From assembly GCA_003202005.1 (NCBI GenBank), contig QJJF01000001.1, positions 1 to 64,000 of the forward strand: 64,000 bases of DNA, written 5' to 3'. Under the pieces are notes generated by a model. The model did no database searches, had not been told where the DNA came from, and saw only the letters and a program-made list of their open reading frames with translations. Source of the DNA: Williamsia faeni. Lineage in GTDB: Bacteria > Actinomycetota > Actinomycetes > Mycobacteriales > Mycobacteriaceae. The position numbers and the translations under genes are program-made. Positions 6,001-22,987 of this stretch are shown here, piece after piece (position 1 is the stretch's first letter; the number at the start of each line of letters is the position of its first letter).

Positions 6001-9000
6001 AACACACGGTTCCAACGGCGGCCGGCGGCGAGCCGTCACCGATCGGGTGTCGATTGTGGCCGCCAGGCGCGCAACGGTGGGAGACTCGAACAGTTCACGG
6101 ATGCCGATCGACGCCGACAGGGCGTCGTTGATCCGCGCCACCGCGCGCATGGCGAGAAGTGAGTGCCCGCCCAGTTCGAAGAATGAATCGTCCACACTGA
6201 CGCGGTCGACATCCAGCAGTGCCGCGAAGACGTCCGCGATGAGCTTCTCGCTGATCGTGCCCGGTGCCCGATACTCTCGGTCTCCGGCGTCGAAGGCCGG
6301 CGCCGGAAGCGCTCGTCGGTCCAGTTTTCCGCTGGGCGACAACGGGATCCGGTCGAGGGGCAGGATCTGCGCAGGCACCATGTACGCCGGCAGTCTGCGA
6401 CTGACGAACTCGAGAAGTTGGTGTGGCTCCGGCGTCGTGCCCGGTGCCGGGACGACATATCCGACGACCGCATCGCCGGTCGAGGGATGCGAGTACAGGA
6501 TCGCGACCGCTCGCGCGACGTCTTCGTGCTCGCTGAGCGCCGACTCGATTTCGCCGAGCTCGATCCGCAATCCGCGCAGTTTGATCTGAAAGTCGGTGCG
6601 CCCGAGGAACCTGAGCCCGCCGTCTGGCCTGACCACCACGAGGTCCCCGGTGCGGTACATCCGCGTGCCCGGTGTCAGCGGATCGGCGACGAATCGTTCC
6701 GCGGTGAGATCCGCACGGCCGTGGTACCCGCGGGCCAGCTGCACCCCGGTCAGATACAGTTCTCCGGGCACGCCGACCGGCACCTCGTGCAGCCGCGAAT
6801 CGAGCACCCGTGCACCGGTATTGCGGATCGGACTACCGATGGGCACGACAGTGTCGGCGGCCGAGGTTCGATACACCGTCGATGTGACTGTCGCCTCGGT
6901 CGGGCCATAGGTGTTGTCCAGGACTGCCGAACTGTGGTCGGCCGCCCGCCGCACGAGATCGGCAGACAGTTCTTCGCCACCGATCGACAGATACCGCAAC
7001 GAGGGCGGCAAGTCCGCCGTTGCCTCGGTGATGAACAGTTCGAGCATCGACGGAACGAACTCGAGGATCGCGAACTGGTACCGAACTGTCAGGTCCAGAA
7101 GATATCCGACATCAAGATGACCTTCGGGCCGCGCGATCACCAGAGTCGCACCCAGTTGCAGCGGCAGGAACAGTTCCCACACCGAGGCGTCAAATGTCAC
7201 CGGCGTCTTGTGCAGCATCACATCGTCGTGGTCGAGGTCGTACCTCTCCCGCATCCAGAGCAACTGGTTGAGTACCGAACGATGCTCGACTGCAACACCT
7301 TTCGGATTTCCGGTCGAGCCCGAGGTGTAGATCAGGTAGGCGGTGTTCCGCGCCCGCAGCGGCGTGGGCCGGTCGGTGTCGGCGATCGGTCCGGCCGGGT
7401 GCCCGGTCAGGTCGAGCTCATCGATGACAACGATCGATTCGAAGACGGGCAGGTCGGCACGATCGCGTGTGGTGGTCAGGACGACCGCAGGCCGCGCGCT
7501 GGCCAGCACGTACTCGTTGCGTTCGTCCGGATGATCCGGGTCGATCGGCACATACGCGCCACCGGCCTCGAGGACCGCATAGATGGCGACCAGCATGTCG
7601 ATCGAACGGCGAGCCGCCACCGCGACAGTGACCTCCGGGCCTACTCCGATGCCCACGAGGTGGTGGGCCAGCCGGAACACCCGCTCACCGAAGTCGCGGT
7701 AACTGATCTGCTCATCCTCGAAGACAACGGCGGTCCGGGAACCGTTGGCGGCCACCGCCCGCCGGAACCCGTCCACCAAGGTCTCATCCGGCATCGGACG
7801 AGAGTCCGAGCCGATCAGTTCGCGCTGCCCCGTCTCTTCGGGCAACAACAGCGGCAAATCGCCCACCGGCCGCGAGGGATCGGCGGCGACTGCCGCCAGC
7901 ATCTCGACAAACCGACCGGCGAACGCCTCCATCGTTCCACGGTCGAACAGGTCCGTGGCATAGAGCAGCGAGCCGCGGATCCGGCCCGCCGAACCGTCTG
8001 CGTTGAACTCCTCGACCAGGGTGATGGTCAGGTCGAGTTTGGCGATCGCCGCCTCCACGTCGTCGATCACCTCGATCGTCACCCCGGGCAACCGGATTTC
8101 GGTGCGCTCGAAGTTCTGCAACATCAGCAGCACTTGGAAGAGCGGCGTGTAGGCCAAAGATCGGGCCGGACGCAGGATCTCGATCAAGCGGTCGAGCGGG
8201 ACATCCGCTTCGCCGAGTGCTTGCAGATCAGTTGAGCGCACATCGGACAGGAATGCATCGAACGGCTGGTCCGGCGACACGACCGAACGCAGCACCAGGG
8301 TGTTGCCGAACATCCCGACCAGGTCATCAAGGGACTGTTCACCGCGACCCGCTATCTGGGTGCCGATGGACACGTCGTCCGTGGCCGCCAACCGCGACAA
8401 GAGCACCGCCAGTGCCGCATGCACTGTCATGAAGAGCGTCGAATTCGCATGCTGGGCATAGGCATTCAACTGCTGCGCGACGTCTGGGCTGATCTCGAAT
8501 TCGACCAGGTCACCGCGGCCGGAAGGCTTGTCGGGTCGCGGGCGGTCCGCGGGCAACTCCAGAACCTCGGGAGATCCCGCCAGTGCAGCCTTCCAGAAAC
8601 TGATCTGTCGCGCGATCAGACTCTCGGGGTCCGATTCCTCTCCGAGCATCTCCCGATGCCACAAGGCGTAATCGGCGTACTCCACGGGCAGTTCGGCGAA
8701 CTCCGGATCGACACCCTGCATCCGGGCCGAGTACGCCAGCATCAGATCACGAACCAGTGGTGTCAGCGATCCACCGTCACTGGCGATGTGGTGAGACACC
8801 ACCACCAGAACCCAACTGTCCTCCGCGAGCTGGAACAGGCGGGCGCGCAACGGTGTCTGCGAGGACACATCGTAACCCCGGGAGATGAAACCGGTGACGG
8901 TCGTCCAGAGCTCCGACTCCTCGACCTGCTCGCTCACCAGGGGCAATATCACCTCGGAAGCGGGCCGGATATCCTGCACCGGACCGTCGTCGGTGTCGGG

Positions 9001-11067
9001 GTACACCGTGCGTAACGGCTCGTGACGCCCGATGAGGTCGCCGAACGCCTGCTCCAGCGCACCGATGTCGAGACTCCCGCTGATTCGCAAGGCAATCGGC
9101 TGGTTGTAAGCGATAGATGTTGTGTCGAACTGATTTGTCAGCCACATCCGCTGCTGCGCGAATGACAGCGGCAAGACGTCAGGCCGCGGTCGGCGTTCGA
9201 GCACCGGTCTGATGTTTCCGCCACGGTTTGCCTCCACGCGGGCAGCGAGTTCGGCGACGGTTCTCGATTCGAAGATCTCCCGGACCCCACTGGTCGATCC
9301 GACTGCGGCGTTGAGACGGGCAACCGCCTGCGTCGCGATCAGGGAGTTGCCACCGAGTTCGAAGAAGTTGTCGTCGAGGCCGACCCGTTCGATCCCCAGC
9401 AGATCTGCCAGCGCAGACGCGACCACCAGCTCGGTCTCGGACTGCGGTTCGCGGTATTCCTTGCGTGAGGTCCCGATGGTCGGAGCCGGTAGTGCGGCAC
9501 GGTCGAGCTTCCCGACCGGGGTGAGCGGCACCTCGTCGATCCGAACGATCTCCGCCGGAACCATGTAGGCCGCCAACGACTTCCCGACGAACGCTGTCAA
9601 CTCGTCGGGGTCGATATCGGCACCCGGACGCGGCATCACATAGGACACCAGCGTCATGGAGCCGTCTGCCAGCTGATGGCCGATGGTGACCGAGAAACCG
9701 ACCCCGGGATGGGCCGCCAGCGCCGAGTCGATCTCGCCGAGTTCGATGCGGAAACCACGGACCTTGACCTGGAAGTCGCTTCGGCCAAGGTATTCGATCA
9801 CCCCGTTCGCGCGCCCGCGAACCACATCGCCGGTGCGATACAACCGGCTTCCCGGTTCGCCGAACGGGCTGGCCACAAATCGTTCCGACGTGAGCGAAGG
9901 CCGGTTGTGATACCCACGTGCCAGCCCTACCCCCGCGATGTACAGCTCGCCGGCCACACCGGCCGGAACCGGCCGCAGCATCGTGTCGAGGATGTGCGCG
10001 GTGACCGCGGGCAGCAGGCCACCGATCGAGACCGGTTCCCCCGGAAGGAGTTCCACCAGGCTGGTCACAACCGTTGTCTCTGTGGGCCCGAATCCGTTCA
10101 TCATGCGGCGGCCGTCCCTGGCGACCTGGGTCACCAATTCCGGACTGACCGCTTCGCCGCCTCCCACCACCGTGCGCAGGTCAGTCAGTCCGTCCAGCAC
10201 CAGGGTCTGCAGCACCGACGGCGTGATGAACGCGTGTGTCACTCCGGTGGTTCGCAGCCACTCCGTCAGCGGCTCACCACCGAATGCGTCCGGCGGCGCG
10301 ATGACCAGCGGTATCCCGGAGCTGAATGCTCCCAGCATCTCGAACAGCGAGACATCAAAACTAGGGGTCGCCACAGCCAGCATTCGCGACGATCGGTCGA
10401 TCTCACACCGGTCCCGGATCGTCTCGGCGAGACCGGACAAGCCGGAATGCGTGACCTCAACACCTTTCGGCCGCCCGGTCGATCCCGATGTGAAGATCAT
10501 ATAAGCCACATTGTTCGGCGCTATCGGACGCAGCCGGTCTGCATACCCGACCGGGTCTGCCGCCTCACCGGCGATCGCTTCCTCATCGGAACCGTCGCCG
10601 AGCACGATCCAATCAACCGAATCAGGCAGTACGGAACGAAACTCGGTCGTGGTGATCCCGCACGTCGCACCGGAATCGTCGAGCATGAACTCGATACGTT
10701 CTGCCGGATATCCGGGATCGACCGGAATATAAAAAGCTCCGGTCTTCGCCACCGCCCAGATCGACACGATCATGGACGCCGAGCGGGTGTTGGCAAGCGC
10801 GACACCGGATTCGGTACCCATGCCACGAGCGATCAAAATCCGGGCGAGTCGAGACGAGCGCTCGTCGAGCTCACGATAGGTCAGGGTGCCGTCGACCGCC
10901 ACGACCGCAATCGAGTCCGGATTGAATTCGACTGCGGTGGATAGGATTTGCGCTAGTGTCGGAACCCTTTTCGCGGGCCGTGGTCGCCGTGTCCGGGCCG
11001 GCGGTCGACCGACCTTTCGGTTGCCCCGCCCCCCTCGAGCATTGCCTCCATGAGCTTCCTCGGTCAT
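1..11067 (-). CDS. Non-ribosomal peptide synthetase, 3'-incomplete (A-T-C-A-T-C-A-T-E-C-...)
   Basis: Assembly-line enzyme that activates amino acids as adenylates and links them on phosphopantetheine arms. The 3689 codons present run off the left edge. The start is the ATG at 11067 behind GAGGAG. A basic, Arg-rich tail of about 35 residues comes first, then directly an A domain with no C domain before it. Approximate residue positions: A1 with TSGSTG near 195, T1 with LGGNSL near 570, C with HHIASDG near 760, A2 near 1250, T2 LGGHSL near 1633, C HHISADG near 1820, A3 near 2315, T3 LGGDSI near 2697, an epimerisation domain with HHLAVDGVSWRI near 2890, then a post-E C domain with HHIVIDG near 3380. 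The nine-residue pocket codes I read by alignment to GrsA are DVFFVGGVV, DAWESGTVT and DAFVVAGIM; I do not assign substrates firmly. The third residue should be D-configured. It follows the other NRPS gene by 150 bp. Confidence 0.95.
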   Translation of the reverse strand, partial: MTEEAHGGNARGGRGNRKVGRPPARTRRPRPAKRVPTLAQILSTAVEFNPDSIAVVAVDGTLTYRELDERSSRLARILIARGMGTESGVALANTRSASMIVSIWAVAKTGAFYIPVDPGYPAERIEFMLDDSGATCGITTTEFRSVLPDSVDWIVLGDGSDEEAIAGEAADPVGYADRLRPIAPNNVAYMIFTSGSTGRPKGVEVTHSGLSGLAETIRDRCEIDRSSRMLAVATPSFDVSLFEMLGAFSSGIPLVIAPPDAFGGEPLTEWLRTTGVTHAFITPSVLQTLVLDGLTDLRTVVGGGEAVSPELVTQVARDGRRMMNGFGPTETTVVTSLVELLPGEPVSIGGLLPAVTAHILDTMLRPVPAGVAGELYIAGVGLARGYHNRPSLTSERFVASPFGEPGSRLYRTGDVVRGRANGVIEYLGRSDFQVKVRGFRIELGEIDSALAAHPGVGFSVTIGHQLADGSMTLVSYVMPRPGADIDPDELTAFVGKSLAAYMVPAEIVRIDEVPLTPVGKLDRAALPAPTIGTSRKEYREPQSETELVVASALADLLGIERVGLDDNFFELGGNSLIATQAVARLNAAVGSTSGVREIFESRTVAELAARVEANRGGNIRPVLERRPRPDVLPLSFAQQRMWLTNQFDTTSIAYNQPIALRISGSLDIGALEQAFGDLIGRHEPLRTVYPDTDDGPVQDIRPASEVILPLVSEQVEESELWTTVTGFISRGYDVSSQTPLRARLFQLAEDSWVLVVVSHHIASDGGSLTPLVRDLMLAYSARMQGVDPEFAELPVEYADYALWHREMLGEESDPESLIARQISFWKAALAGSPEVLELPADRPRPDKPSGRGDLVEFEISPDVAQQLNAYAQHANSTLFMTVHAALAVLLSRLAATDDVSIGTQIAGRGEQSLDDLVGMFGNTLVLRSVVSPDQPFDAFLSDVRSTDLQALGEADVPLDRLIEILRPARSLAYTPLFQVLLMLQNFERTEIRLPGVTIEVIDDVEAAIAKLDLTITLVEEFNADGSAGRIRGSLLYATDLFDRGTMEAFAGRFVEMLAAVAADPSRPVGDLPLLLPEETGQRELIGSDSRPMPDETLVDGFRRAVAANGSRTAVVFEDEQISYRDFGERVFRLAHHLVGIGVGPEVTVAVAARRSIDMLVAIYAVLEAGGAYVPIDPDHPDERNEYVLASARPAVVLTTTRDRADLPVFESIVVIDELDLTGHPAGPIADTDRPTPLRARNTAYLIYTSGSTGNPKGVAVEHRSVLNQLLWMRERYDLDHDDVMLHKTPVTFDASVWELFLPLQLGATLVIARPEGHLDVGYLLDLTVRYQFAILEFVPSMLELFITEATADLPPSLRYLSIGGEELSADLVRRAADHSSAVLDNTYGPTEATVTSTVYRTSAADTVVPIGSPIRNTGARVLDSRLHEVPVGVPGELYLTGVQLARGYHGRADLTAERFVADPLTPGTRMYRTGDLVVVRPDGGLRFLGRTDFQIKLRGLRIELGEIESALSEHEDVARAVAILYSHPSTGDAVVGYVVPAPGTTPEPHQLLEFVSRRLPAYMVPAQILPLDRIPLSPSGKLDRRALPAPAFDAGDREYRAPGTISEKLIADVFAALLDVDRVSVDDSFFELGGHSLLAMRAVARINDALSASIGIRELFESPTVARLAATIDTRSVTARRRPPLEPCVRPARIPLSPAQQRMWFVNQFDTGSAAYNIPLVIRLTGTIDADVLRLAVADVLARHETLRTTYPHADGTPYQLIGEAQSVADRFTIEDLDETMVATRVSALVTAGFDVTTEVPVRGALLRMSPNESVLVFVVHHISADGYSMSPLAADVMAAYAARTSGADNQWPPLYVQYADFSIWQRQMLGSESDVTSVAAEQENYWRAQLAGLPERIDLPLDHVRPPIWSGAGGAAALTIDGELHDGLDELARSQGATLFMVVHSALAVLLARLSGSEDIAIGAPIAGRGSEALDGLVGMFVNTLVLRTNVDAAGRFSDLVAQAKAVDLDAFAHADIPFERLVEVLAPARSTAHHALFQVGLAFQNLERTRFELGDLVVERYESGVHPAKFDLSLEIVALGEGSGRLGDLSVEITYATDLFESATVQRFGERLVGVLAAVVGQPDIAVGDIDILGNVERRAILGDSQGSVAGVPDASTLPEILDAAVRANPDGVAVVAREKALTYRELDARSTQLARVLIERGVGAESIVALALPRSSALVEAIWAVAKTGAAWVPVDPKYPADRIEFMLSDAGARVGLRGAADGHLPSGRVEWLSIDDPEFADEVGRQVSVAITDADRVRPVSVDNTAYMIYTSGSTGRPKGVAVTHSGLTALVAEQRERYRIDGSARVLAVASPSFDASVFELLMAVGSAATLVVSPPEVFGGDDLGLLLARERVSHAVITPSVLESVDPALLPELRVVVTAGEACPPDLVRRFVSGGRRMFNGFGPTESTIMSNCAQLVPDAAVTIGGPIRGATTRVLDQRLAPVPRGVVGELYLSGVGLARGYHQRPDLTADRFVADPLSAVPGTRMYRTGDLVRMGADGSLEYLGRTDFQVKVRGFRIELGEIDSALTRHPDVTFAVTLGHQLPDGTNALVAYVVPLTGTGVTAAELSAFLRGTLAEYMVPAEIMVIDSVPLTPVGKLDRAALPQPGLGTSTVDYREPRTEAERIITDVLAGVLGVERVGLDDDFFALGGDSIVSIQLVSRARAAGLVLEPRDVFEHRTAAALAAVARPAGTGVEPLREIEGGGTGTRPLTPIEHFMIRRGGAYRRFSQVVVLEIPASAQDAAVAATVQAVIDRHDMLRARLIDDGDGHLVETAPPGSVNASELITRVDYDPAIAHGELERIARGALDAALDRLSPADGRMLQCVRLAPIDSTEPGRMIVAAHHLAVDGVSWRIIIPDLVTAAMAIDSGADVILPPTGTSMRTWATLFADKAVRGDYADELDYWQRVIATPDPLLGARALDPQIDVAARTEKISVTVPGDVSDVVLTTTPVRFRGNVNDGLLAALALAVARRRRETGTASQSLLLRLEGHGRESDHLPGADLSRTVGWFTTSHPVALDLSSIDIDDAFAATSEAGRAVKLVKEQLKGVPGQGLGYGVLRYLDVTAGELLAGPAGQISFNYLGRVSTPELPAGVAGIGWTPATDITTLGDVRMDADMPANAVLDINAITVGDELTATFAFPSDILTRGEVSLIADYWVEALQSIADHSVTDTAGGLTPSDAALVRLSQNDIDRLESQTPAITDLWPLSPLQAGLFVHSTMQGDAPDVYVVQMVLELGGDVDVPRLRDAARALLSRYDSLRATFATTVDGVAVQVISDIGDVAWIDHDLDASTAESEVARRLAAERARPFDLGTAPLVRFMMLRTGDRHVLSIMAHHIVIDGWSMPLLIKDLLTLYAVRGDAAALPNTESYRGYLAWLARQDRQAAIGAWTDAFSGSEDPTLLSGIADPTALSSDAETMDVTIEEATTARLAELSSRLGITLNTVIQTAWGLLLARSLNRDDVVFGTTVSGRPADLPGVETMIGLFINTLPVRIVIDESETISELLTRVQTEQRALLDHHHLGLAEIITVVGPGAAFDSLSVLETYPVDEEGLRSAASIDGMAVTGANVLDATHYPISIITFADSTIRTKLRYLTDAFSADEAARIGRRFVRVLEAVAADSLVLVRDVDVLDGVERELVGSRWAF

Positions 11068-11217: not shown

Positions 11218-14200
11218 TCAACCCCATTCCGACGTCCTCAGCTGCACCGAGTCGACGGTCATGAGTTCGACAGTCGCCTCGGCGTCCGCCGGGAATGCGG
11301 CCGGATTTCCCTCGCTGATCACGACTTGCAGATCTTCCAGCGATTCGCCCGTGACAGCAGGCAACTGGCCGGGCCGGATGAACACGTGGGTCACCCATTC
11401 ATCGGCGAGCAATCCCATCAGGTCGGTCTCTTCGTCGGACGTCGGCACGACGACCGTGGCCCCGGCAGCTCCGGCGAGGAGAGCCTCGAACACGGTGACC
11501 GCAGGCGAGACCTCTGCGGTGGCCAGCAGTCTGGACTCGTAGTTCATTCCCAGGCGGTCTGTTTCGGCCGCAACCCGCTGTCCGAGTCGTTCATGCGACA
11601 GTTCGGCCCAAGTACCGGACTCCGGCACCAACAGTGCCGGGCTCGAGGGAACCAGAGGCCGAACGCGGTCGGCATAGGTGAACGGTCGCGGGTTGAATCG
11701 GCTCAACTGTCCCGGCAATTCGAAGAGGTGCTTCACGTCGGCATGCGCATTGCCCGCCTCCGACGACGGATCGACGCCGAACACGAGATCGGTTTTCGCG
11801 GGTAGTTCGGCATCGGTTGCCGGAAGCACCAAACCGGCTCCCGACTTCAGGACGGCCCACCACAGCGGAAGCGCCTCGCGCAGACATCCGGTTTCGACAT
11901 GGACGAGTTGCCCGGGCCCATACCCGTACTCGGCCAGCATTCGCGCCAGCCGGTTCGCTCGGGCATCGAGTTCGGCAAACGTGGTCTCGCCCGCCCCGCC
12001 CACCATCGCGGGCGCACCCGGATCTGCTTCCACCGAAGCCTCGAACAGGGACAGCACCGTGCCTCCCCGGGATCCGCTGGCGACACCGTTCGGTTCGGCC
12101 ACGGGCGTATCGATCACAGCGAGCGGCAGATCACCCACCCGGACATCCGGATCCTGCACGGCTGCAGTGAGAATCGAGGTGAAGTGTGCGCTGAAGGTGT
12201 CCACCGTGTCGTGGTCGAAGAGATCGACCGAATAGGTGAGTTTCATCGCCAGATCCTCGCCGTCGGCACGAGAGTCGTCGACGGTCAGCATCAAATCGAA
12301 ATCTGCCGGATCGAACGGATTCTCCATCTCGGTGATCGTCAAACCCGAAAGTGCCAACTGAACCGAATCGAAGTTCTGAAACGACAGCATCGTCTGGAAG
12401 ATCGGATGCATCGAAGCGTCACGATGCGGCGACACCGCATCGACCACGCTCTCGAAGGGGACATCGGTCATGCTGAACGCCTGCAGACTGACCTCCCTGG
12501 CGTGCTTGAGCAGATCGGTGAACGGTTCGGATTCCTTGAGCTGCAACCGCAAGGCCACCGTGTTCACCAACATCCCGACCAGGGAGTCGAGCTCGGCAGC
12601 GCCGCGGCCGGCATGCGCGGTACCGATCACCACATCCGCGCATCCCGACAACCGCGACAGAACCACCGACAGGGCGGAATGGATGATCATGAATCGTGTC
12701 ACGCCCAAGCGCTGGGCAGTGTCGGCAAGACGGTCGGCAGCGTCCGCATCGAGCGAGAAGTGCACCGAGGCACCCACCCGGCTCGGTGTTGCGGGGCGCT
12801 CACGATCACGCGGAAGGTCGAGTTCAGCCGGAATGCCTTCGAGTTCGCGTTTCCAGAATGCGAGCTGAGCGCTTGCCACCGAACCCTCATCGGTGATCGA
12901 CCCGGCGTAATCTCGTTGCCACAGTGCGTAATCGGCATACTGGACCGGCAGCGGATCCCACTGCGGCGAGGCGCCGTCGGTCCGGGCCGCATAGGCGGCC
13001 ATCATGTCGCCGCCGAGTTGCCGGAGCGAGAACCCGTCGGCCGCGATGTGATGCACGACAACAGCGAGGACATGATCCCCGTCAGGCAATCGGAAAAGAT
13101 TGAGCCGCAGGGGAACCGACGACGTGACATCAAATGGCCGGGTGACGAACTCGACCACAGAGTCCCAAACCCGGTCCTCCTCGATGTTCTCCATGCCGAC
13201 CGATACACCGTGCTCGTGCCCCGCCATCACCTGCTGGCGGGGTACCCCTTCGACGTCCGGGTAGATGGTGCGCAGGACTTCGTGCCGCTCGATCACGTCG
13301 GCAACAGCCGCACGCAAAGCCGCGAGGTCGAGTGGACCACGCAGCCGCAACGCCAGCGGCATGTTGTATTTGGCCGAATCAGGCTCTATGCGATTGCTCA
13401 ACCACATCCGTTGCTGCGCCAGCGCGAGCGGGATCACCTCGGGACGCGGGCGCGCGATCAGCGCGGGCCGCAGTTGTCGACGCGCGTCCGCGATCCGGCT
13501 CGCGAACTCCCCGACGGTGGGCGCGTCGAAGAACGTTCGGACCGGTATCTCCACACCCAGGACCGCTCCGATGCGCGAGGCCGTCTGGGTGGCCACCAAT
13601 GAATTCCCGCCGAGGGCGAAGAAATCATCGTCGAGGCCGACCGGTGAACGATGAAGAATCTGAGAATATGCCGAGGCCACGACCTTTTCCAACCCGCTGC
13701 GTGGCGGCCGGTAGGCCTGAACCTCGATGACCGGGTCGGGTAGAGCGCCCCGATCGAGCTTTCCGTTGGCGGTGAGCGGAAGCTGGTCGAGCACCACATA
13801 GTGAGCCGGGATCATGTATGCCGGCACAAGTTTGGCCATTGCGCGACGCAGCTCTGTCCGATCCACGTGAGCACCGGGGGTGGGTACCAGGTACCCGACG
13901 AGATTGTCGTCGCGCATCAGCACCGCGGCGTTTCGCACGACCGACTGTTCGAGCAACGCCGACTCGACTTCACCGAGTTCGATGCGCAACCCGCGGAGTT
14001 TGACCTGGAAGTCGGTTCGGCCCTCGTAGATGATTTCACCGTCGCCCCGCTGGCGGACCAGGTCTCCGGTCCGGTACATCTGGGCGCCGACGTGCTCTGC
14101 ATACGGATCGGCCACGAATCGGTCGGCGGTGAGGTCGGCCCGGCCCGCATATCCGCGTGCCAGTTGGACACCCGTCAGATACAGCTCACCGGTGACCCCT

Positions 14201-17200
14201 CGCGGAGCCGGATGCAATCGGGTGTCGAGGATCCGGGCACCGGTGTTGCCGACCGGCCGCCCGATCGGAACATCGATGGAGTGGTCGGTCACGTTGTCGT
14301 GGAACAATGCCTGAACCGCCGACTCCGTCGGACCATAGAGATTGTGAAGGGCGGTGTGTGGCAGTAGTTCGGCACATCGTCGCGCCGTGGCCGCGGGCAG
14401 AGCCTCGCCACCGGCGAACAGCATGCGAAGTGACGACAACTCCGGCACGTCGGTCGGGTATTCGTCGAGCTCGTTCAGGAAGACCGTGAGCATCGACGGT
14501 ACGAACTGGGTCACCGTGACGCCGTGCTCGGCGATCAGCCGTCGCAAGTACGCCGGATCGCGATGACCCCCCGGTTCGGCAATGACAACCCTCGCGCCGG
14601 TCTGCAGCGGATAGAAGAGCTCCAGCAGCGAAACATCGAACGTCGCAGGTGTTTTGACCAGGACCACGTCCCTGTGATCTATCCCGTAGCGATCACTCGT
14701 CCAGGTCATCAGGTTCACGATCGCGCTATGACTGACCACGACACCCTTGGGCAGACCGGTCGATCCCGAGGTGAAGATCATGTACGCGGCATTGGCCGGC
14801 CGCAACGGCGACGTGCGCTCGGAATCGCGCACCGGAGCCGGCGAGTAACCCGCCAGATCAAGCGTTTCGACCTCGATCACCCGGACATCGATGGACGTCT
14901 CGAACGGCTCCCGCGAACTTGCCAGGACCATCATCGCGGCCGACGTCGAGATCGCCCGGTCGTTGCGGATCGCGGGTTGATCGGGATCGACCGGCGCGTA
15001 TACGCCACCGGCCTTCAACACCGCATGAACGGCGACCAGATGATCGATCGAGCGCGGCAAGGCCACGACGACAACCTGCTCGGGTCCGACGCCGTTGTCG
15101 ATCAGCCACCTCGCCAATCGATGTGACCGCGCGCCGAACTCCCGGTAGCTCAGCGTGCTGCCGTCTGCGACCACAGCGACCGCATCAGGCGTGCACTCGA
15201 TCTGTGCGTCGAGGAGTTCGACCAGGTTTCGGCGTTCATCGGCCAGGCCGGGGCGGTCGTCACCGGGAATGAACTGCGAATCCTCTGACCCCAGGACGTC
15301 GACATCGGCGATCGCAGCCGAGGGATCGGCGACGACGGCCTCGAGCATTCGCACGAACCTGCTCGCGATCGCCGCCACCGAATCGCGGTCGAACAGATCG
15401 GTGGCGAAGGTCAGCCTGGCGTCGATATCTGTGGGCGAACCGATCAGTGTTGCGGATTCGGTGAGCGTCAGCTGGAGATCGAACTTCGCGAGCTCCAGAT
15501 CGAGTTCGACCGGCGTCAGCGCCAGTCCACTCATCTCCATTTCGGCGGCATCCACGTTCTGGAACGCCAGCATCACCTGAAACACCGGGTGGTAGGACTC
15601 CGAGCGTTCCGGGTTGAGCGCCGTGACGATGCGCTCGAACGGGATGTTCGCATTGCTGAACGCGGCAAGATCGACGTCACGTACCCGTTCGACGAGTGAG
15701 CTGAACGACGAGGTCTGATCTACCTTCGTCCGCAGTGCGAGGGTGTTCACGAACATTCCGACCATCGCGTCGAGCGCGGCCTCACCTCGACCGGCGATCG
15801 GTGTACCGATGGTGATGTCGTCGCTGCCGGCCAACTTCGCCAGGGTGGCGGCCAGCGCGGCGTGCATCACCATGAACAACGTGGCGTTCTGGCTGCCTGC
15901 CAGATCGAGCACTGCGCGGTGCAGGTCGGCGCTGATCACGAAGTCGTGGTTGGCGCCGTGGTGGCTCGATCGGACCGGTCGCGGTCGATCCGTCGGCAGG
16001 TCGAGGGTTCCGGGTGCGTCGGACAGTGCGTCCACCCAGAAGTCGAGTTCCCGGGTGATCAACGCATCGGGGTCCTCTGGTGTCCCGAGAACCTTTTGCT
16101 GCCACACCGTGTAATCGGAATATTGGACCGGCAGTGGGGTCCACGCAGGTGGGACACCCGAGCATCGTGCGCTGTAGGCCTCGATCACATCGCGAGCCAG
16201 CGGTGCCATCGAGGCGCCGTCCGCACAGATGTGGTGGACGACCATGGCCAGCACGTGGTGCTCGGCGTCGAGACTGAACAGCCGTACGCGTAGCGGGACC
16301 TCCGCGGACACATCGAACGTCGACCCGGCGAGCTCCAACAGACCCGCCTCGAACTCGGCGTCGTCCTCCACCCGGACCTCGACGAGTTCGTGCACGACCT
16401 CACCGGGTGCGTGCACATGCTGGACCGGTGCGGACCCGTTGTTCGGGAACGACGTCCGCAACGCTTCATGTCGCTCGATCAGGTCACCGACGGCTGCCCT
16501 GAGCGCATCTGTCTGCAGTCGGCCGCGCAAGCGCACGGCGAACGGAATGTTGTAGGCCGCCGAGTCGGGTTCGAATTGGTTCAGGAACCACATCCGCTGT
16601 TGCGCGAATGACAGCGGCACATCGCCGGCGCCGTCACGCCGGACGAGTGGGAGACGCCCACCGCTGTCCGCCTGGGCGGCCAGCCGCGCGGCGAGGGCTT
16701 CGACGGTCGGCGCTTCGAACATGTGGCGCACCGATACATCTGCCTTCAGCTCTGCACCGAGGCGCGCGACCGCCCTGGTGGCGATCAGCGAGTTACCGCC
16801 GAGCGCAAAGAAGTCATCGTCGAGGCCGACATTGTCGATACCCATGAGCTCACCGAACACCGTTGCCACGATCTGTTCGACAACCGTTGCCGGAGCCCTG
16901 AATTCGATCTTTTCCATGACCGGGTCAGGTAACGCCTTCCGGTCGATCTTGCCGTTCACGGTGACCGGCAGCGACTCGAGGACAACGATCGAGGTCGGTG
17001 TCATGTGCGGGGGTAGTTGTTGCGTCGCGAAATGCTGCAGCGCGCGACGATCAAAAGTCTGTCCGGGTTCCATCACGACATACGAGACGAGTACCTCGCG
17101 CACCGGAGGCGGCTCATCGGCGGTATCGAGCGTGATGCCGTCGATCTGCTGCAGAAGGCGCACCACACCGGCGAACGGCCCGTCGTCGCTACCACGGCGA

Positions 17201-19932
17201 TCACGTTCGGGCGGGGCCGGATGGTAGGTATGCACAACCGTCACCACCGAACGCACGGCCGGATGGCCGGCGAGCACGGCGTCGATCTCACCGAGTTCGA
17301 TACGGAAGCCTCGGAGTTTGACCTGGTTGTCGGCGCGCCCGACGTACTGCAACTCTCCGGATGACGTCCAGCGCACGAGATCGCCGGTGCGGTACATCCG
17401 CAAACCGGGCTTGCTGTACGGGCTGGCGACAAAGCGGGTCGAGGTGAGCCCGAATTTGTTCATGTATCCACGGGTCAGACCATCGCCGACGATATAGAGT
17501 TCGCCGACCACCGCGACCGGCACCGCCCGCAAGCGGTCGTCGAGGACAACCAGACTCAGACCACGCACCGGAGCACCGATGGTCGGTTTGAACGCACTGG
17601 TGATCGGCGGTGTCACCGACGCGATGATCGTTGTCTCGGTCGGACCGTAGGCATTGAACAACCGGGTGCGCTCGAACCAGCGGGCGGCAACTTGCGGCGG
17701 CAGTGCCTCACCGGCGCTGATCACACATTCCAGACTGTCGAGCCCATCGGGCTCGAGTGATCCGAGCGCTGCCGGAGTGATCACCATGTGCGTGATCGAT
17801 TGCGCGCGAATGAAGTTCGACAACTCCTCGCCGCCGAAAACACCGACGGGCGCCAGCGCGAGCGTGCCGGCCGACGACAGGGCCAACAGTTGCTCGAAGA
17901 CCGACGCGTCAAAACTCGGTGATGCCACCGCCAGGGACCGTGATCCGGCCCGGACCTGATAGAGATCGCGCATATCGGCCGCGATGTTGGCCAAACCCAC
18001 GTTGCTCACCACAACGCCCTTGGGAAGCCCGGTCGATCCCGAGGTGTAGATCGTGTACGCGATGCTGTCGGGTCGAACGATGCCGGTGCGATCGGCGTCC
18101 GATACCTGGTGGGCGGGGTGATCGGCGACCACCGACGCCACGATGTCGTCGTCGAGGACGATCCAGTCCACGGAGTCGGGTAGCTGTGAGTGCAGTTCGC
18201 GAACGGTCAGTCCCCAGCGAGCATGGGAGTCGGTCAGGATGTGGCTGATCCGATCGGCCGGATAGGCGGGGTCGACGGGAAGGAACGCACCGCCCGCCTT
18301 TGCGACTGCCCAGACCGACTTCACGTAGTCAACCGATCGCGGCAGCGCCACTGCGACCGGCATCTCCGGACCGATGCCTCGCTCGATCAGGAATCGCGCA
18401 AGCCGATTGGACATCGCGTCGAGGTCTCGGTAACTCACCTCGCCGTCAACGGTGCTCAACGCCGGTTGGTCCCCGGCCGTCGTCACCGCCTCGGCGATCA
18501 GATCGATGAGCCGCTGCGGTTTCTCGCCCACGACACCGCGAGCGGGCACAAAGCGAGCCCGTTCCGACTCGCTGACCAGATCGATCTCACCGACAGACGA
18601 ATGCGATGGGCGCTCGATGAAAAGCTCTAGGAAGTGGACGAAACGATCACGGTGAATCCGCAAGCCGTCTGCTTCGTATCGCTGCGGGTTGGCCTCGAAG
18701 TCGATGTGCATCTCGGTGGTATCGGCACCGTGATAGATGTTCAGGGCCAGATCTTCCACCGGACCGGTGGCCAGCACGTTGAAGTGGCCGGACATCGGCC
18801 CGAGGTTCAGCTCGTTGTGGAAGAGCATGATGTTGACCGACGGGCCGAACAGACCGAGCCGGGTCCTGGTCTCGCCGGCATCGCGGCGAATGTCCTCGTA
18901 CCGATACCGCTGGCGCCGCAGGGCTCCGGTCAGTTCCAGCTGGGCCTGCGATACGGCGTCGCGGATGGTGGCGTGGGACGGCAACTGCAATCGCAATGGC
19001 ACCACGTTCGAGACCATGCCGCCCGAGCGACGCAGCGCAGCGGTGGTGCGGGCCGACACCGGCAGACTCATCACGATGTCGTCGAGTTCGGTCATCCGAG
19101 CCAGAAAAGTGGCGAAAGCCGCGACGACCAGCGGTGCGACGGCGCTCTCCAGGTCGACCGCACGTTCCTCGAGCTTTTTGATCAGCGAGGACGAAATCGC
19201 GCCACCTGCAACAAGGGCGGGCGAAGAGATCGGTGCGGCGGACTCGGACAGCGACGGTGGATCCGGCATCTCACGCGTCTTCTCGGCCCAGTACGCCCGA
19301 TCGTTGACAAAGCGCTCCGAATCCCGATACTTCGCATCCTCGAGATACACGCCGTAGAGATCACTTGCTTTCGACGGCGGCGGATCGTCGCCGGCGACCG
19401 CGGCCGAATAGAGCTCGGCCACCCGGCGCGTGATTGCCATCGCGCCGAAGCCGTCGAGCGCGACGTGATGAATCCTGTTGTACCAGTAGAAGTGTTCGGT
19501 ATCGAGTTGCAAAACGTAGGCGACCACCAGGCGATCGGTCAGGATGTCGATCGGTGCACTGTATTCCCCGGTCATGAACGACATGGCCGCAGCGACCGGA
19601 TCATCCTCATCGCGTAGATCGACGTACGTCAGCGCGTCATCGATCTCGCGGTCGACCAACTGGTACAGGTCCCCGTCTTCCTCCGTCAGGCGCAAAAAGC
19701 CCGACCCGAACTCCTTGCCCGCACCCACCATGCAGTCATTGAGCAATCCCACATCGAGGGCACCGCGGAGCTCTACGTACTGCGCGATCGCAATCGGGAC
19801 GTCACCGGCCAGTTCCTGGGCGAACCACATTCCGCGCTGTGCAGCAGAGAGCGGGAACCGCCCGACCTTACCTGCGTCATCAATGGCGTTGGCTTCGGTC
19901 TGCGTGAGCCTGCTCCCTCCTGCGGCATTCAA
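11218..19932 (-). CDS. Non-ribosomal peptide synthetase, C-A-T-C-A-T-C plus truncated A domain
   Basis: A 2904-residue synthetase that probably starts the assembly line. The start is TTG at 19932, supported by AGGAG six bases upstream; the nearby ATG is out of frame. Approximate residues: C1 25-460 with IHHVALDG, A1 475-1010 with TSGSTGLPKG near 627, T1 LGGNSL near 1046, C2 HHICADG near 1232, A2 with TSGSTG near 1720, T2 LGGNSL near 2109, C3 HHIAADG near 2295. An N-terminal C domain implies that it accepts an acyl or peptidyl starter from elsewhere, possibly a fatty acid. The A1 pocket code reads DAFVIAAII and A2 DVLQFGLVQ; no substrate is assigned. A1 carries a roughly 40-residue insertion near residue 900. 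The last 280 residues are an adenylation-domain remnant without a carrier domain, so the module seems to be completed by the next gene, which begins with an A domain. Confidence 0.95.
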   Translation of the reverse strand: MNAAGGSRLTQTEANAIDDAGKVGRFPLSAAQRGMWFAQELAGDVPIAIAQYVELRGALDVGLLNDCMVGAGKEFGSGFLRLTEEDGDLYQLVDREIDDALTYVDLRDEDDPVAAAMSFMTGEYSAPIDILTDRLVVAYVLQLDTEHFYWYNRIHHVALDGFGAMAITRRVAELYSAAVAGDDPPPSKASDLYGVYLEDAKYRDSERFVNDRAYWAEKTREMPDPPSLSESAAPISSPALVAGGAISSSLIKKLEERAVDLESAVAPLVVAAFATFLARMTELDDIVMSLPVSARTTAALRRSGGMVSNVVPLRLQLPSHATIRDAVSQAQLELTGALRRQRYRYEDIRRDAGETRTRLGLFGPSVNIMLFHNELNLGPMSGHFNVLATGPVEDLALNIYHGADTTEMHIDFEANPQRYEADGLRIHRDRFVHFLELFIERPSHSSVGEIDLVSESERARFVPARGVVGEKPQRLIDLIAEAVTTAGDQPALSTVDGEVSYRDLDAMSNRLARFLIERGIGPEMPVAVALPRSVDYVKSVWAVAKAGGAFLPVDPAYPADRISHILTDSHARWGLTVRELHSQLPDSVDWIVLDDDIVASVVADHPAHQVSDADRTGIVRPDSIAYTIYTSGSTGLPKGVVVSNVGLANIAADMRDLYQVRAGSRSLAVASPSFDASVFEQLLALSSAGTLALAPVGVFGGEELSNFIRAQSITHMVITPAALGSLEPDGLDSLECVISAGEALPPQVAARWFERTRLFNAYGPTETTIIASVTPPITSAFKPTIGAPVRGLSLVVLDDRLRAVPVAVVGELYIVGDGLTRGYMNKFGLTSTRFVASPYSKPGLRMYRTGDLVRWTSSGELQYVGRADNQVKLRGFRIELGEIDAVLAGHPAVRSVVTVVHTYHPAPPERDRRGSDDGPFAGVVRLLQQIDGITLDTADEPPPVREVLVSYVVMEPGQTFDRRALQHFATQQLPPHMTPTSIVVLESLPVTVNGKIDRKALPDPVMEKIEFRAPATVVEQIVATVFGELMGIDNVGLDDDFFALGGNSLIATRAVARLGAELKADVSVRHMFEAPTVEALAARLAAQADSGGRLPLVRRDGAGDVPLSFAQQRMWFLNQFEPDSAAYNIPFAVRLRGRLQTDALRAAVGDLIERHEALRTSFPNNGSAPVQHVHAPGEVVHELVEVRVEDDAEFEAGLLELAGSTFDVSAEVPLRVRLFSLDAEHHVLAMVVHHICADGASMAPLARDVIEAYSARCSGVPPAWTPLPVQYSDYTVWQQKVLGTPEDPDALITRELDFWVDALSDAPGTLDLPTDRPRPVRSSHHGANHDFVISADLHRAVLDLAGSQNATLFMVMHAALAATLAKLAGSDDITIGTPIAGRGEAALDAMVGMFVNTLALRTKVDQTSSFSSLVERVRDVDLAAFSNANIPFERIVTALNPERSESYHPVFQVMLAFQNVDAAEMEMSGLALTPVELDLELAKFDLQLTLTESATLIGSPTDIDARLTFATDLFDRDSVAAIASRFVRMLEAVVADPSAAIADVDVLGSEDSQFIPGDDRPGLADERRNLVELLDAQIECTPDAVAVVADGSTLSYREFGARSHRLARWLIDNGVGPEQVVVVALPRSIDHLVAVHAVLKAGGVYAPVDPDQPAIRNDRAISTSAAMMVLASSREPFETSIDVRVIEVETLDLAGYSPAPVRDSERTSPLRPANAAYMIFTSGSTGLPKGVVVSHSAIVNLMTWTSDRYGIDHRDVVLVKTPATFDVSLLELFYPLQTGARVVIAEPGGHRDPAYLRRLIAEHGVTVTQFVPSMLTVFLNELDEYPTDVPELSSLRMLFAGGEALPAATARRCAELLPHTALHNLYGPTESAVQALFHDNVTDHSIDVPIGRPVGNTGARILDTRLHPAPRGVTGELYLTGVQLARGYAGRADLTADRFVADPYAEHVGAQMYRTGDLVRQRGDGEIIYEGRTDFQVKLRGLRIELGEVESALLEQSVVRNAAVLMRDDNLVGYLVPTPGAHVDRTELRRAMAKLVPAYMIPAHYVVLDQLPLTANGKLDRGALPDPVIEVQAYRPPRSGLEKVVASAYSQILHRSPVGLDDDFFALGGNSLVATQTASRIGAVLGVEIPVRTFFDAPTVGEFASRIADARRQLRPALIARPRPEVIPLALAQQRMWLSNRIEPDSAKYNMPLALRLRGPLDLAALRAAVADVIERHEVLRTIYPDVEGVPRQQVMAGHEHGVSVGMENIEEDRVWDSVVEFVTRPFDVTSSVPLRLNLFRLPDGDHVLAVVVHHIAADGFSLRQLGGDMMAAYAARTDGASPQWDPLPVQYADYALWQRDYAGSITDEGSVASAQLAFWKRELEGIPAELDLPRDRERPATPSRVGASVHFSLDADAADRLADTAQRLGVTRFMIIHSALSVVLSRLSGCADVVIGTAHAGRGAAELDSLVGMLVNTVALRLQLKESEPFTDLLKHAREVSLQAFSMTDVPFESVVDAVSPHRDASMHPIFQTMLSFQNFDSVQLALSGLTITEMENPFDPADFDLMLTVDDSRADGEDLAMKLTYSVDLFDHDTVDTFSAHFTSILTAAVQDPDVRVGDLPLAVIDTPVAEPNGVASGSRGGTVLSLFEASVEADPGAPAMVGGAGETTFAELDARANRLARMLAEYGYGPGQLVHVETGCLREALPLWWAVLKSGAGLVLPATDAELPAKTDLVFGVDPSSEAGNAHADVKHLFELPGQLSRFNPRPFTYADRVRPLVPSSPALLVPESGTWAELSHERLGQRVAAETDRLGMNYESRLLATAEVSPAVTVFEALLAGAAGATVVVPTSDEETDLMGLLADEWVTHVFIRPGQLPAVTGESLEDLQVVISEGNPAAFPADAEATVELMTVDSVQLRTSEWG
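11221..12078 (-). other. Vestigial adenylation domain at the C-terminus of the NRPS
   Basis: Roughly residues 2618-2904 of the upstream NRPS align with the first part of an A domain, from the FEASVEADPGAPAMV start through ELDARANRLARML to a segment matching the A4/A5 region (LQVVISEG). The phosphate-binding TSGSTGxPKG loop is replaced by PESGTWAELSHERLG. The YGPTE motif, YRTGDL motif, C-terminal lid, catalytic Lys and carrier domain are absent. It cannot be an active adenylating unit. The open reading frame is intact, so it is translated as part of a full-length protein. Confidence 0.8.
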
Positions 19933-20289
19933 GATCTACTCCTGATCGCGACACGACCGGTGCTCAGCTAACGTACCGCCGAGTGACCAGTCAGCTGGAC
20001 AAAACCGAAACGCTATTCCTGCTTCAATCTTTCCGGATCACGCACTCGACAACACCGCTTTAGGCTGAATTTTCAAGCGAATGAACGACATAACCCGCGA
20101 TTGGAGCAAGACGTACATATGACCATATCGAGCGCTCCGATGCGGACGTTACATGCCGGTGGTGAGGCGGGGAATCGCACAATCGAGAGTGGCATGCCTC
20201 GGCTTAAGTTTTGCTGACAAAACCATAGGTTTAGTTATGCAACTTAATGAGTACTAGGTAGGTTTGCTGACAAAAGAGAAATTGCCAGA
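19933..20289 (-). promoter_or_regulatory. Upstream region of the NRPS genes, AT-rich
   Basis: This 357-bp non-coding stretch precedes the first NRPS gene on the minus strand. It is visibly richer in A+T than its surroundings, as expected for a promoter and long leader. It contains the paired repeat annotated at 20208-20275. The ribosome binding site AGGAG lies at its downstream end. I cannot place the -10/-35 elements with confidence. Confidence 0.5.
20208..20275. repeat. Two copies of a TTTGCTGACAAAA element, 53 bp apart
   Basis: The first copy (20208-20223) is GTTTTGCTGACAAAAC, a dyad with 6-bp arms around CTGA. The second (20262-20275) is GTTTGCTGACAAAA. Their start-to-start spacing of 53 bp is close to five helical turns, so both would face the same side of the DNA. 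They lie between the small minus-strand gene and the first NRPS gene and look like a pair of binding sites for one regulator. Confidence 0.5.
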
Positions 20290-20748
20290 TCAGACGGCGA
20301 ATGGAGCGCCGATATCGCCCTCGTCCATCGGATCGGAATCTCGCTTTTCGCCTATAGCGCTCGAATCGGACATCCCGGTGACGTCGGCGAAATCGGCCCA
20401 GACACGGCCCAAGGCTCCGGATACGACGGATGCAACGATCTCGTGATCGGATTCGGTCGCCAGTTCCGGTAAGCGGGCGAAGATGGCGGCCACCACGGCG
20501 GCCCCGTCGTCCATCTGCTGACTTCGGGTCACAGTGATCAGCTGATTGACGACATCGGACAATTCGCGGTAGCACAGGGCACGCTGGCGGTAACGGGTGA
20601 CAATCCGTTCCGGAGTGGTCGAGGAGACACGTGCGAGAGCAGCCACGAGCTCGACCGGCCGCACTTTCGCCGAGTCAGCGCCGCCGTTGTCGCTGGTTGT
20701 CGTCGTCTTCGCTGGTTGCGCGTTCGAACCAGGAGGCGTCAAAGTCAT
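20290..20748 (-). CDS. Small protein with adenylation-domain N-terminus-like segment
   Basis: A 152-residue protein of unknown function. Its middle (ELVAALARVSSTTPERIV, then ALCYRELSDVVNQL) matches the opening helix and the LTYRELDxxxNxLA element found at the start of NRPS A domains. It has none of the catalytic motifs A3-A10. The second half resembles the protein encoded upstream of mbtH (shared P-x-L-A and AxVxAxxxxxP spacing), so the two are probably paralogues. The tail is acidic (GEKRDSDPMDEGD). The ATG at 20748 is chosen; a GTG at 20754 behind GAAGGG is equally possible. It lies between the mbtH terminator-like hairpin and the NRPS promoter region, so it is probably part of the peptide locus. 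It may be a decoy or scaffold for MbtH or the synthetases; this is speculative. Confidence 0.65.
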   Translation of the reverse strand: MTLTPPGSNAQPAKTTTTSDNGGADSAKVRPVELVAALARVSSTTPERIVTRYRQRALCYRELSDVVNQLITVTRSQQMDDGAAVVAAIFARLPELATESDHEIVASVVSGALGRVWADFADVTGMSDSSAIGEKRDSDPMDEGDIGAPFAV

Positions 20749-20918
20749 ACTCACATCGACCCTTCGATCCCCGAATTGGCCACAACTGCCACTTCTATAC
20801 CAATCTTCACAGGCGGCACCGTACAGACCATGGGACCGTGTCCAATCGTTACCGGTTCGCCATAGGCTTCGTGACATAGTCGCGTGCAATCACCCGATCG
20901 GCAACCTATACAGCAAAC

Positions 20919-20945
20919 GGCGCGTGTAGCCAGGCTACACGCGCC
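20919..20945 (-). terminator. Strong hairpin downstream of mbtH
   Basis: GGCGCGTGTAG and CTACACGCGCC form an 11-bp perfect stem with loop CCAGG, 14 bp after the mbtH stop codon. A short GTTTG follows on the minus strand. It probably ends or attenuates the mbtH transcript before the next small gene. Confidence 0.7.
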
Positions 20946-20959
20946 GCCTTCATACACTG

Positions 20960-21184
20960 TCAGCTGGACGAGGAATCCGACTCCATCGCATCGATCAGGC
21001 TCTGTGGCCGCAGGTCGGTCCAGTTCTCGTTCACGTAGTCGAGGCACTCTGCCCGCGACGCCTCCCCGAAAACCTTGCGCCAGCCGGCGGGTACATCGGC
21101 GAACGTCGGCCACAGGGAGTGCTGGTTCTCATCGTTGACGAGCACCAGGAACCGACCGTCTTCGTCATCGAAGGGATTGCTCAT
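20960..21184 (-). CDS. mbtH: MbtH-family protein
   Basis: A 74-residue MbtH-like protein. Family knowledge: these small proteins bind NRPS adenylation domains and are often needed for their folding or activity. Visible signature elements are [14 protein letters not shown] and [14 protein letters not shown], which contain the conserved Trp residues. The length is normal. Its ATG overlaps the stop codon of the upstream small gene by 4 bp (ATGA), so the two are translationally coupled. It is followed by a terminator-like hairpin. The location beside two NRPS genes fits a dedicated chaperone role for them. Confidence 0.97.
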
Positions 21185-21651
21185 ACGTCTGCTGTCCTAA
21201 CTCGAAGGGATGTCCGGCGGTGCCGCCTGCGCGGACCACCGTCACTGGGTGACAATTCCAGAGTTTCGGCATTTCCTCCAGGCAGCTTGTGATCGGTCAA
21301 GGCCTTCGCAGCGTTTCGACGAACAGCCGACAGTGCCGCCGCGAAGCCGTCCGGCCCGGAATCCGCCAGACCCGGAACACTCGTCATCAAAGCCATCGCG
21401 ATTGCCGAGTCCTCGAGTGCGGCCGGCGAACATGCCTTCAGGTTTCCGAGGAGCTTGCGAGCCGCCATCGCCCGGGACCGGAGCTCACTGAACAACAGGA
21501 TCGCGTCACCTGAACCGACCGCCGTCGTCGTCGGCCAACGTTGACCTGCGATATCGACGAGTTCGGCAAGACGAAGCAAGTCAGGGTTGGACGGGACCAA
21601 CCGAAGACCGGGCGTCTGGCTCGTATTTCCGGAAGCAAGTTGAACATGCAC
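21181..21651 (-). CDS. Small protein with adenylation-domain N-terminus-like segment, coupled to mbtH
   Basis: A 156-residue protein of unknown function. The segment [15 protein letters not shown]...AV...[17 protein letters not shown] follows the pattern of the first 50 residues of an NRPS adenylation domain, but no TSGSTG, YGPTE or TGD motif follows. The C-terminus is rich in Arg ([14 protein letters not shown]). It appears homologous to the small protein at 20290-20748. I chose GTG at 21651 because a strong GGAGGAG lies a few bases upstream; an ATG at 21750 would add 33 residues but has no clear ribosome binding site. The stop overlaps the mbtH start, which suggests that it is made together with MbtH. 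Possible roles are MbtH partner, NRPS regulator or docking aid; none is demonstrated. Confidence 0.65.
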
Positions 21652-22983: not shown

Positions 22984-22987
22984 CCCG

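Follow-up and report, generated by a model that had tools for sequence, protein, structure and literature searches.

Two proteins encoded beside mbtH in Williamsia faeni belong to an NRPS-associated family that probably connects C and A domains

Introduction

What do two small proteins do that are encoded on either side of mbtH, ahead of a split NRPS, and that begin like the adenylation (A) domain of such a synthetase? The question is raised by the window, a stretch of 64,000 nucleotides of Williamsia faeni DNA (contig QJJF01000001.1). The first-pass annotation had proposed that the two proteins, here called protein A and protein B, are stand-alone A-domain mimics that hold, titrate or hand over MbtH, or that regulate the synthetases. 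The start of an A domain is the place where A meets C in C-A pairs. MbtH-like proteins are solubility partners of A domains, and the contacts reported from modelling and structures lie at about residues 375-395 (G375, A378, A383 and R395 of the A domain of TxtA), according to the available part of PMC7593251. Docking domains determine which synthetase subunits meet and serve as handles for the re-engineering of peptide assembly lines. The available part of PMC9113145 describes two docking classes as exclusive to NRPSs and mentions split modules for PKSs.

Results

Organization of the mbtH locus

The reading frames, coordinates and strand first assigned to proteins A and B proved correct on recheck (Table 1). 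The gene order along the minus strand is A, mbtH, B, NRPS1 and NRPS2. Relatives of protein A from the same genus likewise open with GTG (VVVLQL...). Comparison with related loci placed the degenerate A-like segment at the end of NRPS1 at the C/A junction position where relatives carry the domain described below. The split between NRPS1 and NRPS2 is a C//A split of a different style, in which a degenerate A segment is followed by a subunit starting with A.

Table 1. Features of the window around mbtH, with coordinates on the stretch analysed.
Feature	Position	Strand	Remarks
Protein A, free-standing family member	21181..21651	(-)	GTG start at 21651, 156 aa
Protein A, A-domain-N-terminus-like segment	21448..21570	(-)	helix 28-38, strands 43-47 and 50-53, helix 54-68
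Protein A, family-specific helical second region	21292..21426	(-)	helices 76-91 and 96-120
mbtH	20960..21184	(-)	74 aa; Pfam MbtH match 5.5e-31
Protein B, free-standing family member	20290..20748	(-)	ATG start at 20748, 152 aa
Protein B, A-domain-N-terminus-like segment	20518..20649	(-)	helix 34-44, strands 49-53 and 56-59, helix 60-77
Protein B, family-specific helical second region	20350..20508	(-)	helices 81-92, 94-97 and 102-133
NRPS1	11218..19932	(-)	C-terminal order T - C - degenerate A-like segment
NRPS1 C-terminal pseudo-A segment	11218..12045	(-)	Pfam AMP-binding positions 1-74 of 384 only
NRPS2	1..11067	(-)	A domain first (split module C//A); truncated by contig end

Proteins A and B begin like an A domain

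Searches with single proteins in Pfam and NCBIfam gave no usable family for either protein. In Pfam, protein A had no match and protein B none above the cut-off, neither matched Pfam MbtH, and none of 30 family members taken one by one had a match at E 0.01. NCBIfam returned a weak acyl-CoA-synthetase match for protein B alone, to the start of those enzymes (E 0.012). When a profile of 30 A and B proteins was compared with the PDB, it matched the N-termini of NRPS A domains (best 1.5e-9, ten rows below 1e-3); 57 of the 60 rows listed were ANL enzymes, and the matches spanned profile positions from about 19 to 86, with one row extending to 107. HMM-HMM comparison of each class of family members with 25 real A-domain N-termini gave probabilities of 94.3-98.5, restricted to the first 46-61 columns, against 0.1-0.7 for the controls (five column-shuffled and one reversed, each with two of the classes). 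The homology covers A-domain residues from about 4 to 60-65. Since it stops near A-domain residue 60, the catalytic motifs cannot fit in proteins A and B, which agrees with the early observation that neither has one. Both proteins show the N-terminal helix-strand-strand-helix of PF00501, as judged by AlphaFold, Foldseek, HMM-HMM comparison and the PDB profile search, and at 156 and 152 aa both lack its core ATP and substrate motifs and its full length.

In the AlphaFold models, proteins A and B have the same order of elements (H-E-E-H-H-H), with pLDDT of at least 90 for 78 residues in A and 76 in B. Among the top 50 Foldseek matches in the PDB, 47 were ANL enzymes for B and 48 for A, counting two 'plant enzyme' entries that we take to be ANL enzymes; every E-value, for A and B alike, was above 0.001, and the alignments of B were short (45-48 columns, rmsd 1.4-2.5). 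Structural re-ranking of B with VIA, informative only for the first ~46 residues, produced a mixed list headed by a haloacid dehalogenase (Z 5.9), with the ANL rows at 4.6 or lower. The two checks suggested at the outset, structure prediction of each protein alone and HMM-HMM comparison with A domains, therefore both point the same way: the first part of each predicted fold matches A-domain structures, and the resemblance to the first ~50 residues of NRPS A domains, already noticed in the first-pass annotation, is backed by the profile matches, the HMM-HMM probabilities and their controls.

A second region common to the family

The second half of the domain had an HMM-HMM probability of at most 5.2 against the A domain. 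Between an A-type class (free A proteins and C-terminal copies) and a B-type class (the free B, C and g9 proteins, g9 being a sister genus) the probability for this half was 89.3, and between the A-type class and the internal copies it was 94.7; the other four pairs of classes were weak (10.1-32.7). Over their full length the four classes, compared pairwise, aligned in 91-101 columns with probabilities of 98.0-99.2, and free and fused forms are homologous throughout. The homology of A and B is visible only via their relatives, because the pair in the window is just 15% identical. The proposal that A and B share a second region of their own is upheld by these comparisons. The family is a domain of ~100 residues, made of the N-terminal piece of an A domain and ~45 residues of its own helices, with no catalytic part.

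The C-termini of some free proteins carry further conserved residues. Fifteen relatives of B (loci L109-L123) have a variable linker and then, at their very end, T(S/N/G)E(I/M)DLRxIA(S/N)RL; this may be a short motif for binding, and protein B of the window has lost it. The free proteins of g9 end in LRAVS-like tails.

Fused copies lie at C/A junctions of synthetases

The full-length domain was also found fused into NRPSs, either inside giant synthetases between C and A or on the two subunit tips of a module divided at this point. Giants of ~11.3 kaa carry it between C and A of modules 3 and 5, and in one of them (L090) Pfam left a gap between C and AMP-binding, where the domain lies. In eight giants from three genera, ordinary C-A junctions matched the profile only to position 58-83, whereas the copies of modules 3 and 5 reached 99-114, except for two that end at the edge of the locus (L132 and L133).

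Split modules showed the domain on both sides of the break. All 20 g9 junctions fetched had one copy ending NRPS1 and another starting NRPS2; of the 18 N-terminal copies behind the g9 N-terminal profile, 14 came from the 20 loci searched with it. The remaining six loci had not contributed to this profile, and all 20 were likewise matched by the general one. Both tips were also occupied in four genomes of g22 (L134, L135, L137 and L188) and in five of five further junctions from g22, g9 and g6 (L207-L211, with L208 and L209 from g22 and L207 from g6), these junction loci of g9, g22 and g6 having been selected by a profile match at those places. Pfam analysis of representatives read C, domain, stop at the end of NRPS1 (L102, L134 and L140) and start, domain, AMP-binding at the beginning of NRPS2 (L102, L137 and L185). 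The fused relatives thereby occupy a subunit C-terminus together with the next N-terminus, as docking domains do, and proteins A and B of the window are free proteins. In one genome of g15 (G082), the 5.6 kb that follow an NRPS ending C, domain (L140) hold no other NRPS, and a second synthetase, in the interior of another contig, begins domain-A (L185); these are possibly partners in trans that are encoded apart. An exception was found in g6 (L212; 1-2215 and 3591-4499), where an NRPS has an N-terminal copy and the upstream NRPS ends after C without the domain; the ORF between them is presumably esterase-like.

A class-wide search of 394 genomes, which were not selected for junctions (12 candidates scored in each, so that weaker copies could escape), found full-length matches (profile end at least 95) in 8 genomes, all from the family of the window strain. 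Six of these had adjacent matches in two ORFs (five were checked), one had a giant with two matches, and the last was the window genome with protein A. The idea that the domain is general to actinobacterial NRPSs was rejected, as matches from other families in these 394 genomes stop at profile position 65-69. At E 0.05 no fused copy was detected in the window genome, where only A and B are full length. The window strain is an outlier, with a degenerate A end on NRPS1, no fused copy at this threshold, and divergent A and B.

Since it occurs on the two sides of an interrupted C/A joint, the domain is most readily taken for a connector, and the free proteins for a version of it that acts in trans. 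Judged from sequence, the domain probably works in this way. In a split module, the copy after C would pair with the copy before A and hold the two subunits together. Because the start of the A domain contacts the C domain in C-A pairs, the A-like start could occupy the C-facing surface. The surface by which the fused copies pair would serve the free proteins in trans, making them an adaptor or a cap at the C/A junction of the synthetase encoded next to them. We consider it somewhat more probable than its negation that A and B are free members of an NRPS-associated family whose domain is a protein-protein connector, with the free forms working in trans at the C/A junction of the neighbouring synthetase. 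Besides the junctions, this reading draws on the full-length alignment of the four classes, the grouping of A with fused copies in the tree and the dN/dS values given below. Speaking against it are the lack of a fused copy in the window genome, the g9 genomes that have the fused pair and no free copy, the unpaired N-terminal copy of L212, the softness of the tree, the higher dN/dS of some close A pairs, the weak matches among most second halves, and the tie of B to mbtH. A more elaborate version is tentative, and we rather doubt it: that C and A of one module are joined across polypeptides by an undescribed connector, made from an A-domain start and new helices grafted together, and that free A, B and C together with MbtH are exchangeable subunits which assemble or gate the C/A junction of the giant in trans.

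Regulation of the synthetases, the other role offered by the first-pass annotation, would mean that free copies compete with fused ones for access to the junction, turning assembly on or off in the process. Such competition would fit the homology of free and fused copies over their whole length, and the NRPS beside A and B does carry a module-3 copy in the 15 loci retrieved with protein B (see below), reaching at least profile position 91 in 11 of them and cut at 65-77 by the edge of the locus in four; yet the window genome has A and B without a fused copy at E 0.05, and we regard this role as unlikely.

Free copies and their linkage to mbtH

An alignment of B proteins alone was scanned over genome_contigs (84,980 species genomes per its description) and returned 15 loci of one lineage; the record title was Williamsia for 14 of them and Kitasatospora arboriphila for one. 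In the latter (L114; NZ_JNYV01000004.1, strain NRRL B-24581) the Williamsia genes are almost the same as in W. muralis, and the record is probably mislabelled or contaminated. All 15 loci have the order A-mbtH-B followed by an NRPS ORF of more than 3,000 residues, with 229-483 bp between mbtH and B. The ATGA overlap reported between A and mbtH is present in the window strain but does not hold generally, a gap of 16-108 bp separating the two genes in 15 of these 15 other loci. These named loci and the genomes of g1, g16 and g18 are largely identical genomes, so the counts were kept separate. In g1, the genus of the window strain, matches to A and B were found in nine of nine genomes. Eight of these nine, the window genome being the one without, have a third free paralogue, C, located ~37-40 kb away (8340-8654 in L091, 9894-10289 in L094); in both loci read it adjoins what we take to be a racemase-like gene.

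A free copy is present in 56 of the 59 genomes of the sister genus g9. The distance to mbtH is at most 1.83 kb for 64 of 68 such copies, with a median of about 360 bp between matches, and 63 of these 64 are on the mbtH strand and downstream of it; for the other four, two of which are on contigs of about 16-21 kb, the contig gave no mbtH match. Seen from the other side, 63 of 111 g9 mbtH genes have a free-protein neighbour. Two g9 genomes (G334 and G395) keep the fused pair and have no free copy, and a third (G319) has no free copy. The pair of mbtH and free protein remains intact whether it lies before the NRPS, as in Williamsia, or after one, as in the g9 loci examined. The search for MbtH-linked homologues, suggested as a check, thus found the mbtH and NRPS neighbourhood kept in the 15 Williamsia-type loci and mbtH close to 64 of 68 g9 free copies, and neither an unrelated fold nor a lack of conservation beside these genes was encountered.

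At E 1e-7, with ten candidates scored in each of 394 genomes of the class, B-type free copies were found only in the window genome and in three g9 genomes. Among 41 genomes from five further genera of this family (g22, g23, g15, g6 and g13), the matches listed (to E 1.4e-4) were all in ORFs of at least 505 residues. Of the genera mentioned, g9, g22 and g23 are perhaps Gordonia, Nocardia and Rhodococcus. A genome of g12 (G019) has two adjacent free copies. No mbtH was found in the 20 kb examined around this g12 locus (L101) or around each of the two C-paralogue loci L091 and L094. A profile from a mixed alignment of A, B and C proteins matched 323 of 401 genomes of the family (ten candidates scored in each), a figure that does not count the domain, because many of the matches are ordinary A-domain starts.

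The central idea of the first-pass annotation, stand-alone A-domain-like proteins beside MbtH, therefore survives in part: the family, its conservation next to mbtH and NRPS genes, and the predicted fold of the first part stand, and the holding or titrating of MbtH is not supported. That A and B bind, store or hand over MbtH draws on the position of the g9 free proteins downstream of mbtH, nearly all within 2 kb and on its strand, and on that of B downstream of mbtH in all 15 loci although the place of the NRPS differs between Williamsia and g9. We nevertheless find this improbable. The A-domain segment that contacts MbtH, as given in the available part of PMC7593251, is not present in A and B and lies about 300 residues past the piece that they have; 48 of 111 g9 mbtH genes stand without the protein; the C-paralogue and g12 loci have free copies without mbtH; and fused copies are located at C/A junctions and on subunit tips. 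A connector is favoured over an MbtH-titrating mimic because NRPSs contain the domain at C/A junctions and at the two tips of a split. The B type does have a genetic tie to mbtH, for which docking alone does not account. MbtH could bind another surface of A or B, as the conserved mbtH-B gene pair would allow; with the domain as a connector, the tie would probably reflect joint action at the A domains of the synthetase concerned rather than titration of MbtH.

The same linkage to mbtH, and the solubilization of A domains by MbtH-like proteins as partners (in the available part of PMC7593251), would suit proteins that act alongside MbtH as chaperones in the folding or solubility of the giant synthetase, but this leaves the fused copies flanking split modules unexplained and is very improbable in our view.

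Relationships among copies and selection

For a tree, copies with a profile end of at least 95 and a start of at most 40 were taken as full length; 157 were kept, 109 partial ones were set aside, and merging of identical stretches left 146 domains. Together with 25 real A-domain N-termini they entered a quick tree (~100 columns, SH-aLRT supports), which gave long-branch warnings and in which the A-type protein L100_8 carries a g9-type label. The B, C and g9 free proteins formed one group (SH-aLRT 100), and A joined the g9 C-terminal copies (82). Further groups were the g9 N-terminal copies (99), most module-3 copies (99), most module-5 copies (95) and the real A domains (98); at ~100 columns the joins between groups are soft. 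Protein A of the window lies on a long branch, and its best identity is to a fused g9 C-terminal copy (40% over 92 columns). The place of A among g9 C-terminal copies looks, by sequence, as if free and fused forms interchange.

For topology tests, a random draw by class took 80 rows from the 171 of the tree and left out those of window A, L178 and L106. Constraining A with the g9 C-terminal copies gave a slightly better tree than the free search, a single clade of all free proteins was not rejected (p 0.44), and A plus B alone was borderline (p 0.077). A recent duplication of A and B within one genus was rejected as they belong to different tree classes, though with this p of 0.077.

Estimates of dN/dS were obtained for 92 of 105 A pairs and 84 of 105 B pairs, all of them below 1. 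The seven closest loci gave 0-0.22 for their A genes, and the closest B pairs 0.02-0.10; A evolves less strictly among L117, L118 and L121 (0.29-0.54). The family is under purifying selection in most comparisons. Decay of A and B into functionless A-domain leftovers, rejected on dN/dS, is the least probable reading: the clear descent from A-domain N-termini, the degenerate A segment of NRPS1, the long branch of window A and the higher values in some close A pairs speak for it, but open frames and gene order are kept in 15 of 15 loci, the added helical region is common to the members, both subunit tips are occupied at all 20 g9 junctions fetched, and dN/dS remains below 1 throughout, lowest in the closest B pairs.

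Relation to known systems

With the NRPS docking domains described in the available part of PMC9113145 (COM/helix-hand and others), the family shares small size, lack of catalysis, and a position on the ends of consecutive subunits with both partners present. It differs in its ~100 residues, in its A-domain N-terminal piece, in its place at C//A splits within a module, and in being retained also inside unsplit giants and as free proteins; what is described there of two NRPS-exclusive classes is not of its kind. In fold, the Foldseek lists of A and B hold mainly ANL enzymes, and likeness to a docking class outside those lists is possible. The likeness to the ANL superfamily and the NRPS adenylation domain (PF00501) is confined to the first 46-61 residues, in place of whose continuation and catalytic motifs the family has ~45 helical residues of no detectable A-domain relation. 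Like MbtH-like proteins (PF03621), A and B are small NRPS accessory proteins, with mbtH as gene neighbour, but they do not match Pfam MbtH, and the part of the A domain touched by MbtH (available part of PMC7593251) is the one they are missing. The open-access literature searched, including the available parts of PMC9113145, PMC11253843, PMC7593251, PMC5550956 and PMC9680422, held no description of the domain or of free MbtH-linked A-domain pieces, and the domain is apparently undescribed so far. We would class the family with the docking domains, as one with free members and a putative function, and neither with A-domain enzymes nor, by sequence, with MbtH-binding mimics. If the connector reading is true, a natural connector that divides a module between C and A would be a new joint for engineering, the MbtH-tied free versions would reveal how a giant synthetase kept across several genera of the family is assembled, and the role of the conserved gene trio would become testable.

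Further features of the window

Upstream of the locus, on the plus strand, lies what we take from the translations to be an ABC transporter set (21919-25085). Beside the NRPS cluster, genes at 25579-28437 presumably encode an oxidoreductase and a glycosyltransferase resembling those of mycofactocin clusters. No consensus promoters or terminators were found near the genes. The gap after mbtH contains a perfect 14-bp inverted repeat with a 1-base loop and no T run (20918-20946), which may terminate an A-mbtH transcript ahead of B. Between B and NRPS1, the sequence AG(T/G)TTTGCTGACAAAA occurs twice, at 20207-20222 and 20260-20275, with a spacing of 53 bp. Its core, TTTGCTGACAAA, has no other occurrence in the window (0.07 expected, one mismatch allowed) and, among 191 loci, was present only in four from the window's own place. 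The TTTGCTGACAAAA repeat pair is a possible candidate for a strain-specific regulator site.
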